Positions 3,551 through 63,971 of a stretch of 64,000 bases of DNA are shown here, one piece after another. Within the stretch, counting starts at the first letter, position 1. The number at the start of each line of letters is the position of its first letter. A model generated the notes under the pieces. That model did no database searches and had not been told where the DNA came from. It saw only the letters and a program-made list of their open reading frames with translations. Origin of the DNA: Methanolobus mangrovi. Its GTDB lineage: Archaea; Halobacteriota; Methanosarcinia; Methanosarcinales; Methanosarcinaceae. Location of the stretch: assembly GCF_031312535.1 (NCBI RefSeq), contig NZ_CP133594.1, forward strand, positions 2,151,934 through 2,215,933, given 5' to 3'. A program made the position numbers and the translations under genes.

Positions 3551-4921
3551 TTATGTCTTTGTTTTACGCATTTTTTTCAATGCACCCTTTGCAGCAAAAC
3601 TTGTAGGGTCTATTAGCATCGATACGGGTGGGGCATAGCATGTCTCGATGTTTGCCAGTTCATCAACGTTCGTTCTTTTTTTGATGGCAAGTGTGAGTGC
3701 ATCTATGCGTTCTTTCACACCTTCTCCTCCAACAATCTGTGCTCCTACAAGGTATCTATCACTGAATATTAGTTTGATGAAAAGTTTGCTGCCACCTGGA
3801 TAATAATCTGCTCTCGTTGAACCGGTGGCTATTCCAGTTACTATTTTGATGTTATTCTCCATTGCTTCTTTTGATGTGATTCCCGTGGTTCCGACTTGTA
3901 ATTCTCCTATGACTGCTACCCAGGGATTGAGGATAGGACCAAATTCAGCGGGGCTTGAAGTGAGATTGTTGGTTATGATGCCTGCCATTCTTCTTGCATT
4001 ACTTGCAACCTGGCTCAACATTGCTTTTCCGGTGATGTGGTTATGGACTTCGACACATTCCCCGCCACAATAGATGTCCTGATGATATTCGCCTCCGATA
4101 GAAGGGTTCAAATATTCATTCACAATTATCCCTCCGGTATCTCCAATATCAATTCCTGCACTGGATGCCAATTCATTCTCAGGTCCAACTCCGATGGCTA
4201 TTATAACAAGGTCTGCCGGGAATTCAGTGGAAGCGATTGTGACGGATTCTACGTGTGTTTCTCCGTTAATTGATTTTGGTACATGTCCTTCTATGACTTT
4301 AACTCCAAGAGATTCTAGATGTTCCTTTACTGATTCTGCCATATCAGGGTCGATATTGTGTGAGAGGATGGACGAACCTCTGTTGAGCAGGATAGTGTTT
4401 ATATTCCTCTGGCTGGTGGCCGCAGCAAGTTCCGAACCAATGGACCCACCACCAATTATAACGATATTTGATGCGTTGGTTAGTGCTTCTTCTATTTTCA
4501 TTGCATCCGAGAGCGTTCTAAGGGTGAACACATTTTTGAGTGAAGTTCCCTGGGTATGCATGGGTACTCTTGGTTTGCTGCCTGTGGCTATTACAAGTTT
4601 ATCAAAATGATATTCTTGTCCGTCAGCGCTGATGGTGTGGTTTTCAATGTTAATGGAATCCACTCTGGTTTCAAGCCGAAGGTCCATTCCCATATCTTTG
4701 AAGAACTTGTCATTTCTCAGGACCAACGATTCAAAATCCTTGATCTGCCCTCCAATGACAAAAGGCATTCCACATTGACTATATGCTGTGTGTTTATCTT
4801 CGGAGAATACTGTTACAGAGTATTTGCTGTGGCGCATGAGGCTTGTAGCCACAGCCATTCCCACTGCTCCTCCTCCGATTATGATTACCTTTTTATCATC
4901 TTGCATATTTTTTTCTCGCAT
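3551..4921 (-). CDS. FAD-dependent NADH oxidase/CoA-disulfide reductase-like enzyme
   Basis: 456 residues of the pyridine nucleotide-disulfide oxidoreductase class with a single redox cysteine: FAD-binding IIGGGAVGMAVA near residues 14-25, the cysteine at about residue 50 in SQCGMPFVIGG, and a second dinucleotide fold IIGGGSIGSELA near 155. This arrangement is shared by NADH oxidase, CoA-disulfide reductase and NAD(P)H-dependent persulfide reductase; sequence reading alone does not decide which. In an anaerobe, O2 detoxification or thiol/persulfide reduction are plausible. No C-terminal rhodanese domain is present. The start could be the ATG at 4921 or the ATG at 4906. The next gene downstream (rtcA) follows 3 bp later. 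Confidence 0.85.
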   Translation of the reverse strand: MREKNMQDDKKVIIIGGGAVGMAVATSLMRHSKYSVTVFSEDKHTAYSQCGMPFVIGGQIKDFESLVLRNDKFFKDMGMDLRLETRVDSINIENHTISADGQEYHFDKLVIATGSKPRVPMHTQGTSLKNVFTLRTLSDAMKIEEALTNASNIVIIGGGSIGSELAAATSQRNINTILLNRGSSILSHNIDPDMAESVKEHLESLGVKVIEGHVPKSINGETHVESVTIASTEFPADLVIIAIGVGPENELASSAGIDIGDTGGIIVNEYLNPSIGGEYHQDIYCGGECVEVHNHITGKAMLSQVASNARRMAGIITNNLTSSPAEFGPILNPWVAVIGELQVGTTGITSKEAMENNIKIVTGIATGSTRADYYPGGSKLFIKLIFSDRYLVGAQIVGGEGVKERIDALTLAIKKRTNVDELANIETCYAPPVSMLIDPTSFAAKGALKKMRKTKT

Positions 4922-5518
4922 ATTCTTTTAAAAGCTTGTTTGCATATTAATTCTATTCCCCGGTCAGCTTTTATCTAAATCAAAAGCAGTTGTGGTTTTA
5001 TTTTAAATAGCCATCAGAATATCAACCCATAAGTTTATAAAACTTTGAATTATATTACTTAACGTAATCATCATTATGATTGCATTATTATTTAAAACAA
5101 GATAATACAGATACTACGAACATAGGTATCTTTCAACAATAGTCATTCGCAATCACTACAGATTCAAATATGAATCATCTACCGATTAGGTATTCATTAA
5201 ATCATAAAAAGATGCTTAACAGGTCAAAAGCTACAAGTATTCAATGAGGGATTTGGAAATACTGCTTATTGATCACTGCCCAAAGCAGCATGAGTAACAT
5301 GCCTGCATTATATGTAGGGTGATTAATTACTGCTGTACTTAGCTTGGCGTTGGTTTCGATTAAGTGGAATTCATCATGTTTATTCATTGAATTTTTAGTT
5401 TCATCTTTAAAGCCTTTCGACATGATGACGAAGTCTGGGTAGTTATTACCGATTTACTATTTTTGTATTCCGAATTGTTCTGGTATCATCATTACATACA
5501 TAAATTCGGAGAATCATC
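4922..5518. other. Intergenic region between divergent flavoenzyme and dnaG
   Basis: About 600 bp of AT-rich DNA upstream of two divergent genes. I see AT-rich promoter-like stretches (for example around 5030-5060) and the dnaG leader hairpin listed separately. A 60-codon open frame on the minus strand (5241-5423) has no recognisable family and no clear ribosome-binding site, so I do not call it. No tRNA or other RNA gene is evident. Confidence 0.6.
5469..5510 (+). promoter_or_regulatory. Possible SD-sequestering hairpin in the dnaG leader
   Basis: An exact 8-base inverted repeat, TCCGAATT at 5469-5476 and AATTCGGA at 5503-5510, encloses a 26-base loop just upstream of the dnaG ATG at 5519. 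The 3' arm overlaps the Shine-Dalgarno bases CGGAG (5507-5511). If the stem forms in the mRNA, the ribosome-binding site would be partly hidden, which could tune primase translation. The stem is AT-rich, so stability is modest. Confidence 0.4.
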
Positions 5519-7533: not shown

Positions 7534-8048
7534 ATATAATCCCGAAGTCTGAAAGAATGCTTCTTTCCTGAGAATACGGATTTATCTGTGTTATTCAGGA
7601 AAGCAGTTGTAAATGGAGTAAGACGCTTTTTCATAATTATTCCATCTTCTCCATCAGAATAGTAGCCATGCTCTATCCAGCAGGGAATGAAATCCATACG
7701 CTTGTAGAAGTGTTGAGCCCTGATGTTGGAAATCCTTACTTCCAGGCTTGCATAATGCAGTAACTTGGTTATAAATACTGGAAGAATGGCATTCATGAGC
7801 TTGGCTCCAACGCCCATGCTTCTGAATCCATCCCTCACTGCAAGTGAGAATATCCTTCCCTCATTGGCAGACAGTTTGTATCCTACAACAAAACCGACTA
7901 TATATCCATTGTAATCGGCAACAAGGAATCCTTCACTGTTCATTTCATAGAAGTTCATGTACAGGAACGGATTATGTTCCGAAAATGCTTCTGACTCTAT
8001 TTCCAGAACCTCCTCAAAATCAGAAGGTTCAAAGTTTCTTATTATCAT
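7530..8048 (-). CDS. GNAT-family N-acetyltransferase (RimI-like)
   Basis: 172 residues with a GNAT fold: acidic opening IRNFEPSDFEEVLEIE, beta-strand VGFVVGYKL, and the acetyl-CoA-binding signature SMGVGAKLMNA (Q/RxxGxG/A type) at about residues 77-87, followed by the Y-rich HFYKRMDFIP segment. Close relatives acetylate protein N-termini or ribosomal proteins (RimI/Ard1 type), but the substrate cannot be read from the sequence. The C-terminal 35 residues extend past the core GNAT fold. It lies 23 bp downstream of arcS on the same strand. Confidence 0.88.
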   Translation of the reverse strand: MIIRNFEPSDFEEVLEIESEAFSEHNPFLYMNFYEMNSEGFLVADYNGYIVGFVVGYKLSANEGRIFSLAVRDGFRSMGVGAKLMNAILPVFITKLLHYASLEVRISNIRAQHFYKRMDFIPCWIEHGYYSDGEDGIIMKKRLTPFTTAFLNNTDKSVFSGKKHSFRLRDYI

Positions 8049-8071
8049 TTTTCTTTAAACCATAATATGGT

Positions 8072-9913
8072 TTATTCTATTTTTTTAACATGACGCAAGT
8101 CTACTGCCACTCCTCGAGTAGCTTTCTTCATCTCATCTCCGCTCATGACCGCTCTTCCAACTGCAATTGCATTCTTACCACAGATGAGTACTTCATCGGT
8201 TGGCCTTATCAGTGGATCCGCATCAACTACTCCTGGGGCCAGAAGTGAGCCACGGGGGACGAAGTCATCTATCTTTACGATATATTTGCCCTGATCCATC
8301 ATAGCTTTCACGCCTTCAATGGTAATTGCCAGTGTTCCATATTGGGGTATCAATGTGGTGAGTTGTTTCTTTCCAACAAATACCTGGTGTTTGGGGAAGG
8401 GTCCTTTGATGGTTGACTCTTCTGGTACTAGTATCTGTCCGCATCCTTTTCCAAATTGGTAATCTGCAACAGCTTTCATGAGGTCTTTTTGGGTCTGCTC
8501 ATGGCCTCGTTTTCTTCCGGTGCAAAGTCCTGACATTGTTTCACTGAGATTCCTCAGTGATTCAGGTGATGTTACATTGCCACGGCTTGTATATGTGATA
8601 TCTATACCAAGTTTTTCTGCCACTATCTCGCATATCTGGCGGTATGCATCTTCCACATGTGCAACAATGGATGTGTACTGATGTTGTGACAGATATTTTT
8701 CAAGACATGATGCTACCCATTCTTTTTCTTCCGCATCCCAGTATCCGGTTACCGTTGTATCATAATGTGACGCGGGGTATGTCAGTTCAAGCTCCCTTGG
8801 CACAATTCCAAGAGGTGATGTGATTATGACCTCATGGACAAATTTACGACTCTTTCCAAGAGCATTGATGAATCTCCAGTGAGAGTTCGATGTGGAATAT
8901 GGCTTCTTTGCAGAGCATGGCAGGAGCAATAGTATGTCTTTTTCCGGTGGAGTATACCTTTCCTGTATCCTCCTGGCAAACCTGACGATCTCTGCCCTGT
9001 TCTGGGATTCTCCGCAAGTGGCAATGAGTCCGTTGTTCCTTGCTATGGGGCTTCTGCTCTCAACATAGTTGTACTCTGCATCCACGAGCCGCATCAGGGC
9101 AGTGAGCCATGGTCTGACTCTGCATTGTCCTTCTATATATTCACGCAGCATTCCTAAGCGTATCTTCTCTCTGACAAGAGCCGCTTCAGCCTCCATGGCA
9201 TTGATGTTGTGCTTTTCTAGGATTGATGCACGGCTCTTTTTGTCCATTTCCATAAGCCCTTTTGCATCTGTTGCTGAACAGGCACTGCACCTGCATGGTA
9301 GTTCTGCCAGTGAATCAAGATAGAATTGTCCTGCAGCAGTAAGGTAGATATCTTTGTGTGCAGCAACTATTGCTTTTGTATTGTCAAAAATATCAATTCC
9401 AAGGTAGGCCAGCATTGCAAGATTTTCAGGGGTGCAGATATTGGGTGCGTAGACTGCCGTATCAGGTGCTATCTCATTTTTCATTTCAATAAGGGTGTTG
9501 AGAATACGTCTCGCATTGTTCTCAAAACATCCTGCGCCCTCCATAACATAGAGGTCAGCTTGCTTTACCTTCTGTCCGGCAATGTAAATGCTTCCTGTAG
9601 CTCCGGTTGCTTCAATTTCAGACCTTTCTGCAAGTTTAAGTGCAAGGTCCTGCGGGGCATCAGGTGTAAGATCCTGATGAGGAAGTATTATTAAGACTTC
9701 TTCTCCAGCTGCTTTTCTTATTTCCTGGAAATATTCTTTGCTTTCCTTCAGATCACTGTATTTCCAGAGAGAGCCACCGTCTATTATCAGGCTGTCAGGA
9801 GAACTAAGGCTTCTTGTATCTAGTATGAAAGGTGTCTGGATAGTTTCCTTCAGGAGAAGTTTCCCTATCCTTGCAGCACCATCTCGTTGCTGTACCTCAA
9901 AGTATCGTGTCAT
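8072..9913 (-). CDS. arcS: Archaeosine synthase
   Basis: 613 residues: an N-terminal TGT-like half, a central segment with the ArcS signature LLLPCSAKKPYSTSNSHW near residues 325-342, and a C-terminal PUA domain from about 530 (VPRGSLLAPGVVDADPLIRPTDEVLI). ArcS acts on preQ0 at position 15 of archaeal tRNA, giving archaeosine or its lysine-adduct precursor together with a radical SAM partner in some lineages. The TGT-like half appears to lack the full catalytic apparatus of true tRNA-guanine transglycosylases, as expected for ArcS. Four cysteines (CRCSACSA plus neighbours, around 204-211) could bind zinc. The start ATG at 9913 is 85 bp from the divergent glcD-like gene. Confidence 0.93.
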   Translation of the reverse strand: MTRYFEVQQRDGAARIGKLLLKETIQTPFILDTRSLSSPDSLIIDGGSLWKYSDLKESKEYFQEIRKAAGEEVLIILPHQDLTPDAPQDLALKLAERSEIEATGATGSIYIAGQKVKQADLYVMEGAGCFENNARRILNTLIEMKNEIAPDTAVYAPNICTPENLAMLAYLGIDIFDNTKAIVAAHKDIYLTAAGQFYLDSLAELPCRCSACSATDAKGLMEMDKKSRASILEKHNINAMEAEAALVREKIRLGMLREYIEGQCRVRPWLTALMRLVDAEYNYVESRSPIARNNGLIATCGESQNRAEIVRFARRIQERYTPPEKDILLLLPCSAKKPYSTSNSHWRFINALGKSRKFVHEVIITSPLGIVPRELELTYPASHYDTTVTGYWDAEEKEWVASCLEKYLSQHQYTSIVAHVEDAYRQICEIVAEKLGIDITYTSRGNVTSPESLRNLSETMSGLCTGRKRGHEQTQKDLMKAVADYQFGKGCGQILVPEESTIKGPFPKHQVFVGKKQLTTLIPQYGTLAITIEGVKAMMDQGKYIVKIDDFVPRGSLLAPGVVDADPLIRPTDEVLICGKNAIAVGRAVMSGDEMKKATRGVAVDLRHVKKIE

Positions 9914-57266: not shown

Positions 57267-57755
57267 TTGACCAATTTACAAAAACTGTTTAATGATGATA
57301 GGGCCATCGAGCTTCCTATCAATATTGTAGTCATGCTGGTGGTTGGTATGGTTGCCCTTGCGGCACTTGTGGCGATTATCCCTCCTCCAACTAAGAATAT
57401 GTCCGTGAATATCATTGAGTCAGGCGAGCAAAGTGCAACTCCAAGTCCAGGTAATACTATCATTGTGGATTCGACCGTAGCAAATTCCCCATTTGATATC
57501 GGTGTTGAGATATCTGTGTCCGATCCGGATGGCTATCCTGTAAGAGCTGCCAATGTGGTCTTACGCGGACTTGGCGGTGTGGCAACGGGTACTACAGATG
57601 ACCATGGCAATTGTTCTCTCAGTACTGCAAGCAGTGGCTCATCTGTCAGCCTCGGTCCTAATCAGAATGAAGGAACCATGGATCTTACTATCTCAACCGA
57701 TGGCTTCTATGATTTCGAAAAGACGGACGCAGTAATGATAGTCAGGACTTCATGA
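57267..57755 (+). CDS. Archaeal type IV pilin-like protein with carboxypeptidase regulatory-like domain
   Basis: 162 residues from a TTG at 57267, behind GGTG. The N-terminus is a class III signal peptide: basic/acidic DDRAIELP then the hydrophobic VVMLVVGMVALAALVAII, the layout of archaeal pilins cut by EppA/PibD peptidases just before the hydrophobic helix. The rest has an Ig-like, carboxypeptidase regulatory-like domain (VSDPDGYPVRAANVVLRG, TTDDHGNCSL). It is paired with a similar gene 30 bp downstream, suggesting that the two form a surface pilus or pilin-like complex. No assembly ATPase or membrane gene is present nearby. Confidence 0.8.
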   Translation: MTNLQKLFNDDRAIELPINIVVMLVVGMVALAALVAIIPPPTKNMSVNIIESGEQSATPSPGNTIIVDSTVANSPFDIGVEISVSDPDGYPVRAANVVLRGLGGVATGTTDDHGNCSLSTASSGSSVSLGPNQNEGTMDLTISTDGFYDFEKTDAVMIVRTS

Positions 57756-57785
57756 TCCTGGCATCTCTTTTATTTTCAGGTTTAC

Positions 57786-58217
57786 ATGCTTTCTGATGAA
57801 TCCGCATCTGCAGGACTTCCGATGAGGATTGTTGTGCTCACGATAATCGGGATGATAGGTATCTATGTGATAGTCACATCGATCATGAGCACACCTTTTG
57901 TGCCGGGTTCAATGTTCGCGGCTTCAAATTGCAGCAGCTTCAACATGACCGGAGCAATATGTGATTCTCCTGACCTTATCGTAAGCGTTTTTGACAATGA
58001 AGGAAGGCCGGTAGGTGGTGCAAATATTATTGTATGGGGACCAGACAGGGAAAAGGTTGCAGGTGGTATCACAGATGCCAGCGGTGAATTCAATTACAGG
58101 TTACTGAACATTTCCTTACCTCAGGGTAAAACCGAAGGCTATCTTTCGGTCAAGGTTATGCAGGAAGGGTATCTGGATTATACAAATGACTTTCTGGTTA
58201 AAGTAAGAAAAGTATGA
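57786..58217 (+). CDS. Second pilin-like protein with carboxypeptidase regulatory-like domain
   Basis: 143 residues. The N-terminus (ESASAGLPMRIVVLTIIGMIGIYVIV) has the same class III signal pattern as the gene before it, with LPMRIVV after the cut region. A carboxypeptidase regulatory-like domain follows (VFDNEGRPVGGANIIVWGPD, ITDASGEFNYRLLN). Two cysteines (SNCSSF and AICDSP, about residues 45 and 55) could form a disulfide. It lies 30 bp downstream of the first pilin-like gene on the same strand and almost certainly shares a transcript. Confidence 0.8.
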   Translation: MLSDESASAGLPMRIVVLTIIGMIGIYVIVTSIMSTPFVPGSMFAASNCSSFNMTGAICDSPDLIVSVFDNEGRPVGGANIIVWGPDREKVAGGITDASGEFNYRLLNISLPQGKTEGYLSVKVMQEGYLDYTNDFLVKVRKV

Positions 58218-60649: not shown

Positions 60650-63574
60650 TTAATTGCTTGGTGCTGTAATATAATCATAAATCGAATCTTCAACAGGATG
60701 ATTCATCCGATATTTTACTTTTACAACTGACACTTTTTTATTATCGTCATTAACCAAAGTAGCTTCTTCGAAGCTTTCATCAACAGGAGTCACATCACCC
60801 ATATAGTAGAAATCATTACTTTCTCCATTACTTTTTTTGATGAATAAAGGCAGTCTAAGACCATTTTTGTAATTTCTAATAATAACAACATCAGGGCTAT
60901 CCAGTTTTCTTCCAGATTTAGACATCCATTCGAATTGAGAATTATTAACAAAACCTTCCTCATATTTTGTAGTGCTCGAGATATGTTCTTCTTTGTGATA
61001 GTTTACGAATATTGGGCAATTTGTCTTCTGATCATTGATACGATAACCTCCGACATTCTGTGCCAATGGATTCTGATCCCAATTCAGAATTCTAAATACA
61101 TCTTTTCGGGAATACTTCTGATACAATATGAAGCCATCAACATACTTGTTTTTGTCAAAATTTCGATCATAAATTGTTTTGGAATAGTCTAGCATATCAT
61201 TTAGGAAATGCAAGAATGTTTCATTTTTTAGTGAATCAATAAATAGATCACTAAATGAGAGAATTCCGTTTTCATAAGAAACGATGCTTAAATCGTATAT
61301 TTCACTAACACTAACTAAATTACCACTGTACTTTTCAGTTACAAAGTCAAAATTGATGTTTTTGACACATGATTCTATCGTTTCATCAGGAATCGAAATG
61401 CCATATTTATCGAAAATAATTGCTTTAAAATCTTCCTTTAATAGAGTATTTCCAGCAATTAGTTCTTTGAGAATAATAACTTCCTCGACTCTCTTAGTGT
61501 TTGCAATTTCATTGGAGAATAACTCGAGGAGCTTTGTTTCCTTTTCAGATAATTTATTTTGTAAGGCTTCTTCTTGATGTGATGCGAAGTTAAAATAGGA
61601 TTTTGAATAGTTTACATACAATTGTGGATCTCGAGAACCATGTTCTACAAAGTCCATCATCAGAGGGATTCTACCAATCTTGAATTTTAATAGCTCGTAG
61701 TCTTTATCAAGGTCCTTTTTGAGATGCAAATTAGCTTTGTTAATTGCTGCAAAAATTCTATCATGTGTAATTTTATCAAAATTAATAGTTGAAGCACCCG
61801 GAACAAAACTGCTTCCACTTAACATCAATTTGCGCAGTGTATCCTTGTTATAAGTAGTATCTCCATATAATGCAATTGGAACTAAGTAATTATTATTGTA
61901 ATTGCCTATAAAATCAATTACAGTGAGGTATTCTTTGTCTTTAGCTTTACGCAATCCTCTTCCTAATTGTTGTACAAAAACGATGGCAGATGCCGTGGGT
62001 CTTAACATGATGATTTGGTTTACTTTTGGAATATCTACGCCTTCATTGAAGATCTCAACAGTAAAGATATAATCTAATTTTTCAAAAGGATCATGACTTT
62101 CCAATCTGTTTATTGCAGTATTTCTCTCCTCTTCACTATTTTTGCCAGATAATGAGACAGTCTTGTATCCTCTTGCATTAAATAAATTAGATAGTTCCTG
62201 ACTTTCATCTACACTGCTACAAAAGATAAGTCCTCTCACGCATCCATTATCACAACCGTAAAATTCAGCTTTTTCGATAATCCTATCTACACGTTCTTTT
62301 GCTGTTAACAAAGAGAAAGCTGCTTCTTCGTCTAAGACTTTATCATCTACCGTAACATCAGTTACACCAAAATAATGAAAAGTCGATAACATTTTTTCTT
62401 CTAAAGCTCTATGCAACCGAATTTCGTATGCAATATTGTGTTCAAATTGAGAAAAGATATCGAATCCATCAGTTCTTTCAGGCGTAGCAGTCATGCCCAA
62501 CAAAAATTTTGGTTTAAAATGATTGAAGATTTTTTGATAACTTTCTGCCCCTGCTCTATGGGTTTCGTCTACAACTATATATTCAAAATGCCTTTGGTCA
62601 AATTGATGTAAATGTTCATCTCTAGAAATGGTTTGAATTGTTGAAAAAATAAAATCTGCATTAATTTCTCTTTCATTTCCTGAGTAAATACCCATGCTTC
62701 GACTCTCACCAAAAATTCGTTTGAAGCTTTTTATAGCATCATCTACAATGTTTCTTCGATGTACTACAAACAAAAACTTTTTAGGATTGTATGCTTTCAC
62801 ATCAAATGCAGATAGATATGTTTTTCCCGTCCCAGTTGCAGAAATTAATAAAGCCTTATCTTTATCCTTTGATCTTAAATCTTCCAGATTTGCCAATGCT
62901 TCAATTTGCATTGAATTGGGAGTTATTGAGTCATTATGACGAGATTCAATGCTTTTTCTTGAACTTGAAATGAACTTCTTTTTCAAATTATAATCTAATG
63001 TATATGATTCAATGAAGTTATCATCCACAAATACAGCATTTTCAAATTCATTTCTGAATTCATTAATTGAGTCAATTATTAATTTTGAGTCAGAAGTAGC
63101 TGATATTTTCAAGTTCCATTCTTTATTTGAACATAGTGCACTAGATGTAAGATTGCTGCTTCCAATAATTAAGTTAAAGCGATTGCTTTTTTTGAATAGG
63201 TAACCTTTTGCATGAAAATCAGAATCGACTGCTATTTTTAAATCAACATTTTTGAGTTTTAATAAAGACTTTAATGCTTCTGGTTGAGTGAAATATTGGT
63301 ATTGGGATACCAGTATTTTTCCGTTAATTCCAGCTTTTTCAAGTTCTTGGAGTGTATTTATTAAAGAAACTACTCCACCTTTTGTTGCAAATGCTACTGA
63401 AAACCAAAATTTCACACAGTTTTTTAGTTCTCTAGATATAGTCTGTAGTACTTTTTTCCCATTACTAGTATCATTTACCAGTAACTCTGGAAGATATTCT
63501 TTTTTTGAAGCTAAAGACTGGTCAATAAAGCCAGTTTTCAAGCTGTCCAATAGATGTACAGGAAAGTGATCCAT
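60650..63574 (-). CDS. SauUSI-like type IV restriction enzyme: PLD nuclease - SF2 helicase - DUF3427
   Basis: 974 residues. The N-terminal phospholipase-D nuclease domain (about 35-175) has the HxK motif H121-x-K123 in DSDFHAKGYLF with IGSSNLTSSA 15 residues on. An SF2 helicase follows: Walker A SATGTGKT at about 245-252, DETHRAG at 336-342, TATPERTDG at 362-370 and QQLGRGLRK near 555. The last 330 residues fit DUF3427. This is the same domain order and size as Staphylococcus SauUSI, which cuts DNA containing 5-methyl- or 5-hydroxymethylcytosine and uses ATP. The gene is strongly AT-rich compared with its neighbours. It begins 1 base after the NUDIX stop, with AAGGAA before the ATG. Confidence 0.88.
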   Translation of the reverse strand: MDHFPVHLLDSLKTGFIDQSLASKKEYLPELLVNDTSNGKKVLQTISRELKNCVKFWFSVAFATKGGVVSLINTLQELEKAGINGKILVSQYQYFTQPEALKSLLKLKNVDLKIAVDSDFHAKGYLFKKSNRFNLIIGSSNLTSSALCSNKEWNLKISATSDSKLIIDSINEFRNEFENAVFVDDNFIESYTLDYNLKKKFISSSRKSIESRHNDSITPNSMQIEALANLEDLRSKDKDKALLISATGTGKTYLSAFDVKAYNPKKFLFVVHRRNIVDDAIKSFKRIFGESRSMGIYSGNEREINADFIFSTIQTISRDEHLHQFDQRHFEYIVVDETHRAGAESYQKIFNHFKPKFLLGMTATPERTDGFDIFSQFEHNIAYEIRLHRALEEKMLSTFHYFGVTDVTVDDKVLDEEAAFSLLTAKERVDRIIEKAEFYGCDNGCVRGLIFCSSVDESQELSNLFNARGYKTVSLSGKNSEEERNTAINRLESHDPFEKLDYIFTVEIFNEGVDIPKVNQIIMLRPTASAIVFVQQLGRGLRKAKDKEYLTVIDFIGNYNNNYLVPIALYGDTTYNKDTLRKLMLSGSSFVPGASTINFDKITHDRIFAAINKANLHLKKDLDKDYELLKFKIGRIPLMMDFVEHGSRDPQLYVNYSKSYFNFASHQEEALQNKLSEKETKLLELFSNEIANTKRVEEVIILKELIAGNTLLKEDFKAIIFDKYGISIPDETIESCVKNINFDFVTEKYSGNLVSVSEIYDLSIVSYENGILSFSDLFIDSLKNETFLHFLNDMLDYSKTIYDRNFDKNKYVDGFILYQKYSRKDVFRILNWDQNPLAQNVGGYRINDQKTNCPIFVNYHKEEHISSTTKYEEGFVNNSQFEWMSKSGRKLDSPDVVIIRNYKNGLRLPLFIKKSNGESNDFYYMGDVTPVDESFEEATLVNDDNKKVSVVKVKYRMNHPVEDSIYDYITAPSN

Positions 63575-63575
63575 T

Positions 63576-63971
63576 TTAAGATTCCTTCATTAATTTTGAA
63601 ACAATTGGAATATCTGCTTCAGCCCAGTCCAAAGTCGATAATTTTTCTGGATTCAACCATTTGAAAGCAATGTGCTCTTTCAGATTAAATGTTGAATTTA
63701 AAGCGGTGCAAATGAAACTGTGCATGGTAACACTAAAATCAGGATACTGATGATTTACAGTTAAAAACTCTCTTTCTATTTTTATATCTGCATCAAGTTC
63801 CTCTAATAACTCGCGTTGTAATGCTTGTTCTTTAGTTTCGCCAGATTCTATTTTTCCACCTGGGAATTCATACTTTAAAGAAATGTAATCGTATTTTCCA
63901 TGATCTCTTTGAACACATAGAATCTTATCATCATCAATTATTATTGCTGCAACTACTTCGTGGTGTTTCAT
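63576..63971 (-). CDS. NUDIX hydrolase, NudG/MutT-like
   Basis: 131 residues from the ATG at 63971, preceded by AGGGATG; a TTG at 63992 is less likely. The Nudix box is complete: GGKIESGETKEQALQRELLEEL with G, E and REXXEE residues. The opening HHEVVAAIIIDDDKIL and the C-terminal EADIPIVSKLM (compare ADIPLLEAFM in E. coli NudG) point to the NudG/Orf135 subgroup, which prefers CTP and 5-substituted dCTP (5-methyl, 5-hydroxy). The stop TAA is 1 base before the SauUSI-like ATG, so the two are translationally coupled. The gene shares the AT-rich composition of its partner. Confidence 0.85.
   Translation of the reverse strand: MKHHEVVAAIIIDDDKILCVQRDHGKYDYISLKYEFPGGKIESGETKEQALQRELLEELDADIKIEREFLTVNHQYPDFSVTMHSFICTALNSTFNLKEHIAFKWLNPEKLSTLDWAEADIPIVSKLMKES

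Follow-up and report, generated by a model that had tools for sequence, protein, structure and literature searches.

A gene for a NUDIX hydrolase stands immediately ahead of a gene for a homologue of SauUSI, the type IV restriction enzyme of Staphylococcus aureus, in a 64,000-nucleotide stretch of the Methanolobus mangrovi genome (contig NZ_CP133594.1, positions 2,151,934 to 2,215,933), which as a whole is referred to here as the window. We observe that this pairing is near-obligate across bacteria and archaea. We consider it probable that the two genes make up a two-gene type IV restriction unit, in which the NUDIX enzyme keeps modified deoxycytidine triphosphate (dCTP) out of the host DNA and so spares the chromosome from the nuclease. 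The earlier note on this DNA had singled out a 131-residue NUDIX protein and a 974-residue PLD-helicase-DUF3427 protein, encoded with a gap of one base, as a candidate defence system; both open reading frames are confirmed (Table 1).

Scanning genome contigs for SauUSI homologues with a ten-sequence alignment (A1) yielded 80 loci from Bacteroidota, Bacillota, Pseudomonadota, Spirochaetota and archaea. A NUDIX gene lies within 150 bp of the SauUSI homologue in 69 of these and within 1 kb in 72; five of the remaining eight (L061, L070, L091, L099 and L116) are truncated at the end of a contig, which leaves a NUDIX gene nearby in 72 of the 75 loci with readable flanks. Since NUDIX genes occur at a background density of ~2 per Mb (184 genes in about 88 Mb), only ~0.2% of SauUSI genes would be expected to have one within 150 bp by chance. 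The search for the same neighbourhood in other genomes, which the earlier note had proposed, thus bears out its suspicion that the two genes belong together. The NUDIX gene lies upstream on the same strand in 51 of the 69 loci, downstream on the same strand in 11 and downstream on the opposite strand, in convergent orientation, in seven; because three layouts occur, the adjacency does not represent one frozen operon.

The same association is found within single lineages. A full-length SauUSI-like gene is present in 9 of 295 Halobacteriota genomes, the host included, and is directly preceded by a NUDIX gene in all nine. The SauUSI class is accompanied by NUDIX in 6/6 cases among 299 genomes of Flavobacteriaceae and in 2/2 among 295 of Bacteroidales (one genome in each of these two samples was already part of the 80-locus scan), and the SauUSI homologue of lactobacilli is likewise paired. 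SauUSI itself is directly preceded by a NUDIX gene in two S. aureus records (L036, L039), the product of which is identical in sequence to PDB entry 5X1X, deposited as ‘Mutator mutT protein’. Pairwise distances between SauUSI proteins correlate with those between their NUDIX partners (0.74, n=85 pairs, against 0.15 for the best of 2000 permutations): the pair is co-inherited. The dependence is asymmetric, in that the nuclease is rarely found without NUDIX and NUDIX is commonly found without the nuclease. The three loci with readable flanks that have no NUDIX gene are L058, where the nuclease no longer has a PLD domain or a Walker A motif, L108, where it is intact and a NUDIX family member is encoded elsewhere in the genome, and L082, which is taken up below. 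Three partial SauUSI-like genes in viral contigs have no adjacent NUDIX gene, and all of them are cut at contig ends. At one locus (L113) two different NUDIX genes flank the SauUSI gene (4483-4941 and 7893-8318), the second of them divergent in sequence.

What would the two proteins do? The archaeal 974-residue protein matches the SauUSI structure 7CLG over its full length (E=4e-215) and, again from end to end, the SauUSI-type PADLOC model mREase_IV (745 bits). It has the SauUSI-type order of PLD, superfamily 2 (SF2) helicase and DUF3427 domains, and its catalytic PLD and helicase motifs (HxK, GSSN, SATGTGKT, DExH) are intact, with key residues invariant in A1. SauUSI cuts DNA containing 5-methylcytosine (m5C) or 5-hydroxymethylcytosine (hm5C), not glucosylated hm5C (PMC3874153), and the binding of modified DNA by DUF3427 is a prediction (PMC7159879). 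By analogy, the archaeal protein probably cuts DNA with methylated cytosine. Twelve Bacteroidota homologues of SauUSI (L044, L045, L051, L052, L054-L057, L060, L071, L079 and L080) carry a C-terminal extension of ~175 residues that resembles a LexA/UmuD-type S24 peptidase (GESM...IPNG; PF00717, 2e-5), hinting that the restriction enzyme may be under DNA-damage-linked control in these bacteria.

The archaeal NUDIX protein (Pfam NUDIX match, 8e-17) matches the NCBIfam models for MutT and NudG, both below their cut-offs. Its closest solved relative is 3GWY, the Bacteroides fragilis protein Q5LBB1 (E=3e-43), followed by 5X1X; Escherichia coli NudG (Orf135, 2RRK) is more distant (E=3e-15). In a NUDIX tree drawn from a short alignment, with weak deep forks, 3GWY falls within the SauUSI-linked part. 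All 74 SauUSI-linked partners that were aligned share the Nudix residues G39, E45, R53, E54, E57 and E58. The Nudix box (GX5EX7REUXEEXGU-type) is intact in the archaeal protein, the late signature Gly being replaced by D, as it is by D, N or S in many partners. Asp120 is also invariant in 74/74 and shares its alignment column with the PAD Asp of NudG, which we take to be the base-recognition position; His100, Trp116, Phe79 and Tyr76 are nearly invariant across the same set. For Q5LBB1, kcat/Km values of 4.8e6 (5-Me-dCTP), 4.4e6 (5-hydroxymethyl-dCTP), 6.7e6 (5-Me-CTP) and 8.5e4 (5-OH-dCTP) per M per s have been reported, cleavage falling for the most part between the alpha and the beta phosphate (PMC5158307). 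The archaeal NUDIX is accordingly predicted to be a 5-methyl-dCTP and 5-hydroxymethyl-dCTP pyrophosphohydrolase; a preference for 5-methyl-dCTP has been measured for 3GWY and NudG only. The earlier note had guessed at 5-substituted dCTP from NudG, and the guess gains from the preference of the closest assayed family member for the 5-methyl and 5-hydroxymethyl forms. The substrate set of the NUDIX homologue coincides with the target set of the nuclease, as 3GWY takes 5-methyl- and 5-hydroxymethyl-dCTP and SauUSI cuts m5C and hm5C.

This coincidence leads to the proposed course of events. The SauUSI-like protein would cut DNA bearing 5-methyl- or 5-hydroxymethylcytosine, and the modified triphosphates would arise by salvage from the degraded modified DNA of an invader, or by uptake. 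The NUDIX enzyme would hydrolyse 5-methyl-dCTP and 5-hydroxymethyl-dCTP to the monophosphate and pyrophosphate; with the modified triphosphates destroyed, no modified cytosine would enter new host DNA, and the nuclease, having no protective methyltransferase of its own, would then spare the chromosome. We infer here that the archaeal proteins share the specificities of their homologues, that modified dCTP forms in host cells and that self-protection is the role for which the NUDIX gene was selected. SauUSI restricts by itself, as one polypeptide, both in vitro and in E. coli (PMC3874153); cutting therefore does not require the NUDIX protein. Self-protection offers the best fit because of this independence of the nuclease, the asymmetry of the association, the unrelated enzymes found beside related NUDIX genes, the scarcity of m5C methyltransferases and the additional MazG-like enzyme, the last three of which are set out below.

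No m5C methyltransferase (PF00145) was found in the archaeon's own genome, and one is present in 3 of 24 SauUSI-bearing genomes sampled. Among Flavobacteriaceae, such methyltransferases occur in 4/25 genomes with PLD-DUF3427 proteins vs 134/274 (p=0.0014, both classes of these proteins pooled and kinship ignored). Since PLD-DUF3427 genomes seldom carry them, host m5C seems costly for the carriers.

Related NUDIX genes also adjoin other enzymes that act on modified cytosine, as seen at single loci rather than in a counted survey: an HNH protein that weakly matches SRA (L254), another HNH protein (L256) and McrC together with a PLD protein (L257); a C5-cytosine methyltransferase lies near a further one (L162). 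As these enzymes are unrelated, a shared substrate explains the association better than a shared contact. A gene for a MazG-like pyrophosphohydrolase directly follows the NUDIX-SauUSI pair in lactobacilli (L034:7868-8188, L038:7984-8295) and in a member of the Bacteroidetes (L048:3564-3956). Human DCTPP1, which belongs to the MazG-like superfamily, has been linked to the metabolism of 5-methyl-dCTP (PMC4491611). Whether self is told from non-self by way of the nucleotide pool more generally, with a dedicated enzyme barring the forbidden base and such a guard accompanying SauUSI, SRA-like HNH and McrBC nucleases alike, seems to us an evenly balanced question.

Several observations weigh against the self-protection interpretation. 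The interpretation presupposes a source of 5-methyl-dCTP in the cell, for which salvage from restricted DNA is our simplest guess. Cloned SauUSI alone restricts in E. coli (PMC3874153), although E. coli carries NudG. Avoidance of methyltransferases falls short of significance in the SauUSI class taken by itself (1/6, p=0.22) and in Methanosarcinaceae, with an m5C methyltransferase in 0/8 vs 9/25 genomes (p=0.07). Two intact nucleases have no partner: that of L082, in whose metagenome-assembled genome no NUDIX family member was found, and that of a Fusobacterium locus from the plasmid collection (L037). Conversely, other members of the NUDIX family are located among ordinary genes (L157). Finally, PLD-helicase-DUF3427 proteins of a second, PDLC03659-like class, ~1050 residues long, have NUDIX beside them at 0/18 loci in Halobacteriota, at 4/9 in Bacteroidales and at 12/19 in Flavobacteriaceae. 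A NUDIX link to every PLD-DUF3427 protein was therefore rejected as a blanket rule; as the second class pairs in part, the near-obligate link is a feature of the SauUSI class that the other class partly shares.

Another possibility, also raised by the earlier note, is that the NUDIX enzyme is a second arm of attack, draining the modified dCTP of a phage while the nuclease cuts phage DNA that is still modified, so that the phage is caught either way. The substrate data of 3GWY (PMC5158307) would suit this role equally well, many members of the NUDIX family stand beside other defence genes, and in PADLOC the family is entered on its own as the defence candidate PDC-S07. We nevertheless regard this scenario as unlikely. 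Removal of the base would deprive the nuclease of its target and shield the phage from it, putting the two arms at cross purposes in a cell that has no further restriction system, which makes self-protection the stronger of the two roles that the note had offered. Membership in PDC-S07 is no evidence of defence either, because E. coli NudG, the product of a stand-alone housekeeping gene, also matches the PDC-S07 model PDLC04899, at 1e-43. By the same token, reports such as the one that 99% of Enterobacter genomes possess PDC-S07 (PMC12851794) have probably counted the housekeeping enzyme.

The tight linkage and co-inheritance would also be expected if the NUDIX protein acted on the nuclease, be it as a regulatory or structural subunit or through a nucleotide signal controlling the ATP-dependent enzyme. 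Such a role appears improbable given that the single SauUSI polypeptide suffices in vitro and in E. coli (PMC3874153), that the catalytic NUDIX residues are invariant and that McrBC and other unrelated enzymes have related NUDIX genes beside them. Quite improbable, too, is a general anti-mutator of the MutT kind, cleaning up 8-oxo-dGTP or oxidised dCTP and travelling with the nuclease through damage repair or oxidative stress: the family itself and the sub-threshold MutT and NudG matches are in keeping with it, but 5-OH-dCTP is a ~50-fold poorer substrate than 5-methyl-dCTP for the closest relative with assay data (PMC5158307), and the invariant Asp120 aligns with the Asp of NudG. That the genes are chance or hitch-hiking neighbours with no shared function, for which the two intact exceptions L082 and L037 might be cited, has next to no probability, since the 80-locus survey and the density of NUDIX genes, with adjacency in three layouts and several phyla, rule out chance adjacency.

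At the archaeal locus a single base separates the NUDIX stop from the start of the SauUSI-like gene, so that a NUDIX-led two-gene transcript is likely. A TATA-like TTTATAAATT lies ~40 bases 5' of the NUDIX ATG, just beyond the window (L001 4857-4866). The two-gene unit is AT-rich, as had been noticed before, with a GC content of 31.9% vs 42.9% for the window, and ordinary genes flank it on both sides: UDP-glucose dehydrogenase downstream, and methyltransferase and hisI-type genes upstream, beyond the window. A defence island at this locus was rejected on account of these flanks. The host genome, of the Methanosarcinaceae, comprises 2.62 Mb in one contig, and among the sequences compared the nearest named relatives of the unit are from Methanolobus and Methanococcoides. 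A survey of archaea describes PDC-S07 as mostly bacterial, with archaea having probably gained it by transfer (PMC12988326); the AT-rich composition of the unit in this host is in line with this.

Table 1. The NUDIX and SauUSI-like genes and the domains of the nuclease, in window coordinates.
Feature	Position	Strand	Remarks
NUDIX hydrolase gene (P0001)	63576..63971	minus	131 aa; ATG 63971, stop 63576; NudG-like / PADLOC PDC-S07
SauUSI-like gene (P0002)	60650..63574	minus	974 aa; ATG 63574, stop 60650; PLD nuclease - SF2 helicase - DUF3427
PLD nuclease domain, PLDc_2	63038..63367	minus	residues 70-179; H121, K123 and GSSN motif invariant in alignment A1
SF2 helicase domain 1, ResIII	62474..62926	minus	residues 217-367; Walker A SATGTGKT, DETH box
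SF2 helicase domain 2, Helicase_C	61949..62236	minus	residues 447-542
DUF3427, predicted modified-DNA recognition domain	60665..61519	minus	residues 686-970; Pfam 262.7 bits

Further associations were seen in passing. The NUDIX family stands beside Schlafen group 3 helicase proteins (PADLOC PDC-S41) at L163, L166, L170, L239, L247, L257 and L258, fused to one at L258; these proteins are possibly another partner system of NUDIX. A NUDIX gene lies near an HpaII endonuclease (L249), and another adjoins a gene for an MksE-type condensin (L241:1489-2503), a family tied to plasmid defence. Elsewhere in the window (57267-58217) two adjacent small genes code, as judged by eye only, for a hydrophobic N-terminal stretch and for a repeated domain of carboxypeptidase-regulatory-like appearance.

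How much of this was known? The earlier note held the system to be undescribed, which does not apply to its parts: both proteins are in PADLOC-DB, as PDC-S07 and mREase_IV, and in a survey of Streptococcus suis PDC-S07 and type IV restriction-modification co-localise in 23/23 occurrences (PMC12813430). SauUSI, NudG, the kinetics of 3GWY, the PDC-S07 model and the S. suis co-location are thus already known. In the papers searched, we came across no mechanistic link between NUDIX and the SauUSI-type nuclease such as the one proposed here. The paper on the mechanism of SauUSI (PMC7913695) mentions neither mutT nor a pyrophosphohydrolase; among the open-access papers searched the names ‘SauUSI’ and ‘nudix’ occur together only in one survey of other conflict systems, and no statement that SauUSI-type enzymes carry a dedicated modified-dCTP hydrolase, or reason for it, was found there, which is no proof of priority. 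SauUSI, one of the major barriers that gene transfer encounters in S. aureus, has been treated as a solitary polypeptide; normally it has a partner, one that was crystallised (5X1X) and, in the papers searched, never discussed with SauUSI. Our data suggest that this is an overlooked, cell-protecting partner. They also indicate a likely function in the cell for the orphan candidate PDC-S07 and for a 5-methyl-dCTP pyrophosphohydrolase, assayed in 2016, that had none assigned to it. In addition, they bear on how a cell armed with a modification-dependent nuclease escapes self-inflicted cuts when it recycles the modified nucleotides of DNA that has been destroyed.

Three known entities invite comparison. 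PDC-S07, the model of which (PDLC04899) the archaeal NUDIX matches at 9.6e-50, is catalogued as a single-gene phage defence candidate with no mechanism. B. fragilis Q5LBB1 (3GWY), the nearest solved relative and placed inside the SauUSI-linked part of the tree, has been characterised in vitro only, and a search of Bacteroidales and one genus did not find its gene locus. S. aureus SauUSI (7CLG) differs from the archaeal nuclease in its host and in a sequence ~40% identical, and ATP-dependent cleavage at m5C and hm5C is known for SauUSI only; the two enzymes have in common their domain order, homology over the full length and a NUDIX gene directly ahead.

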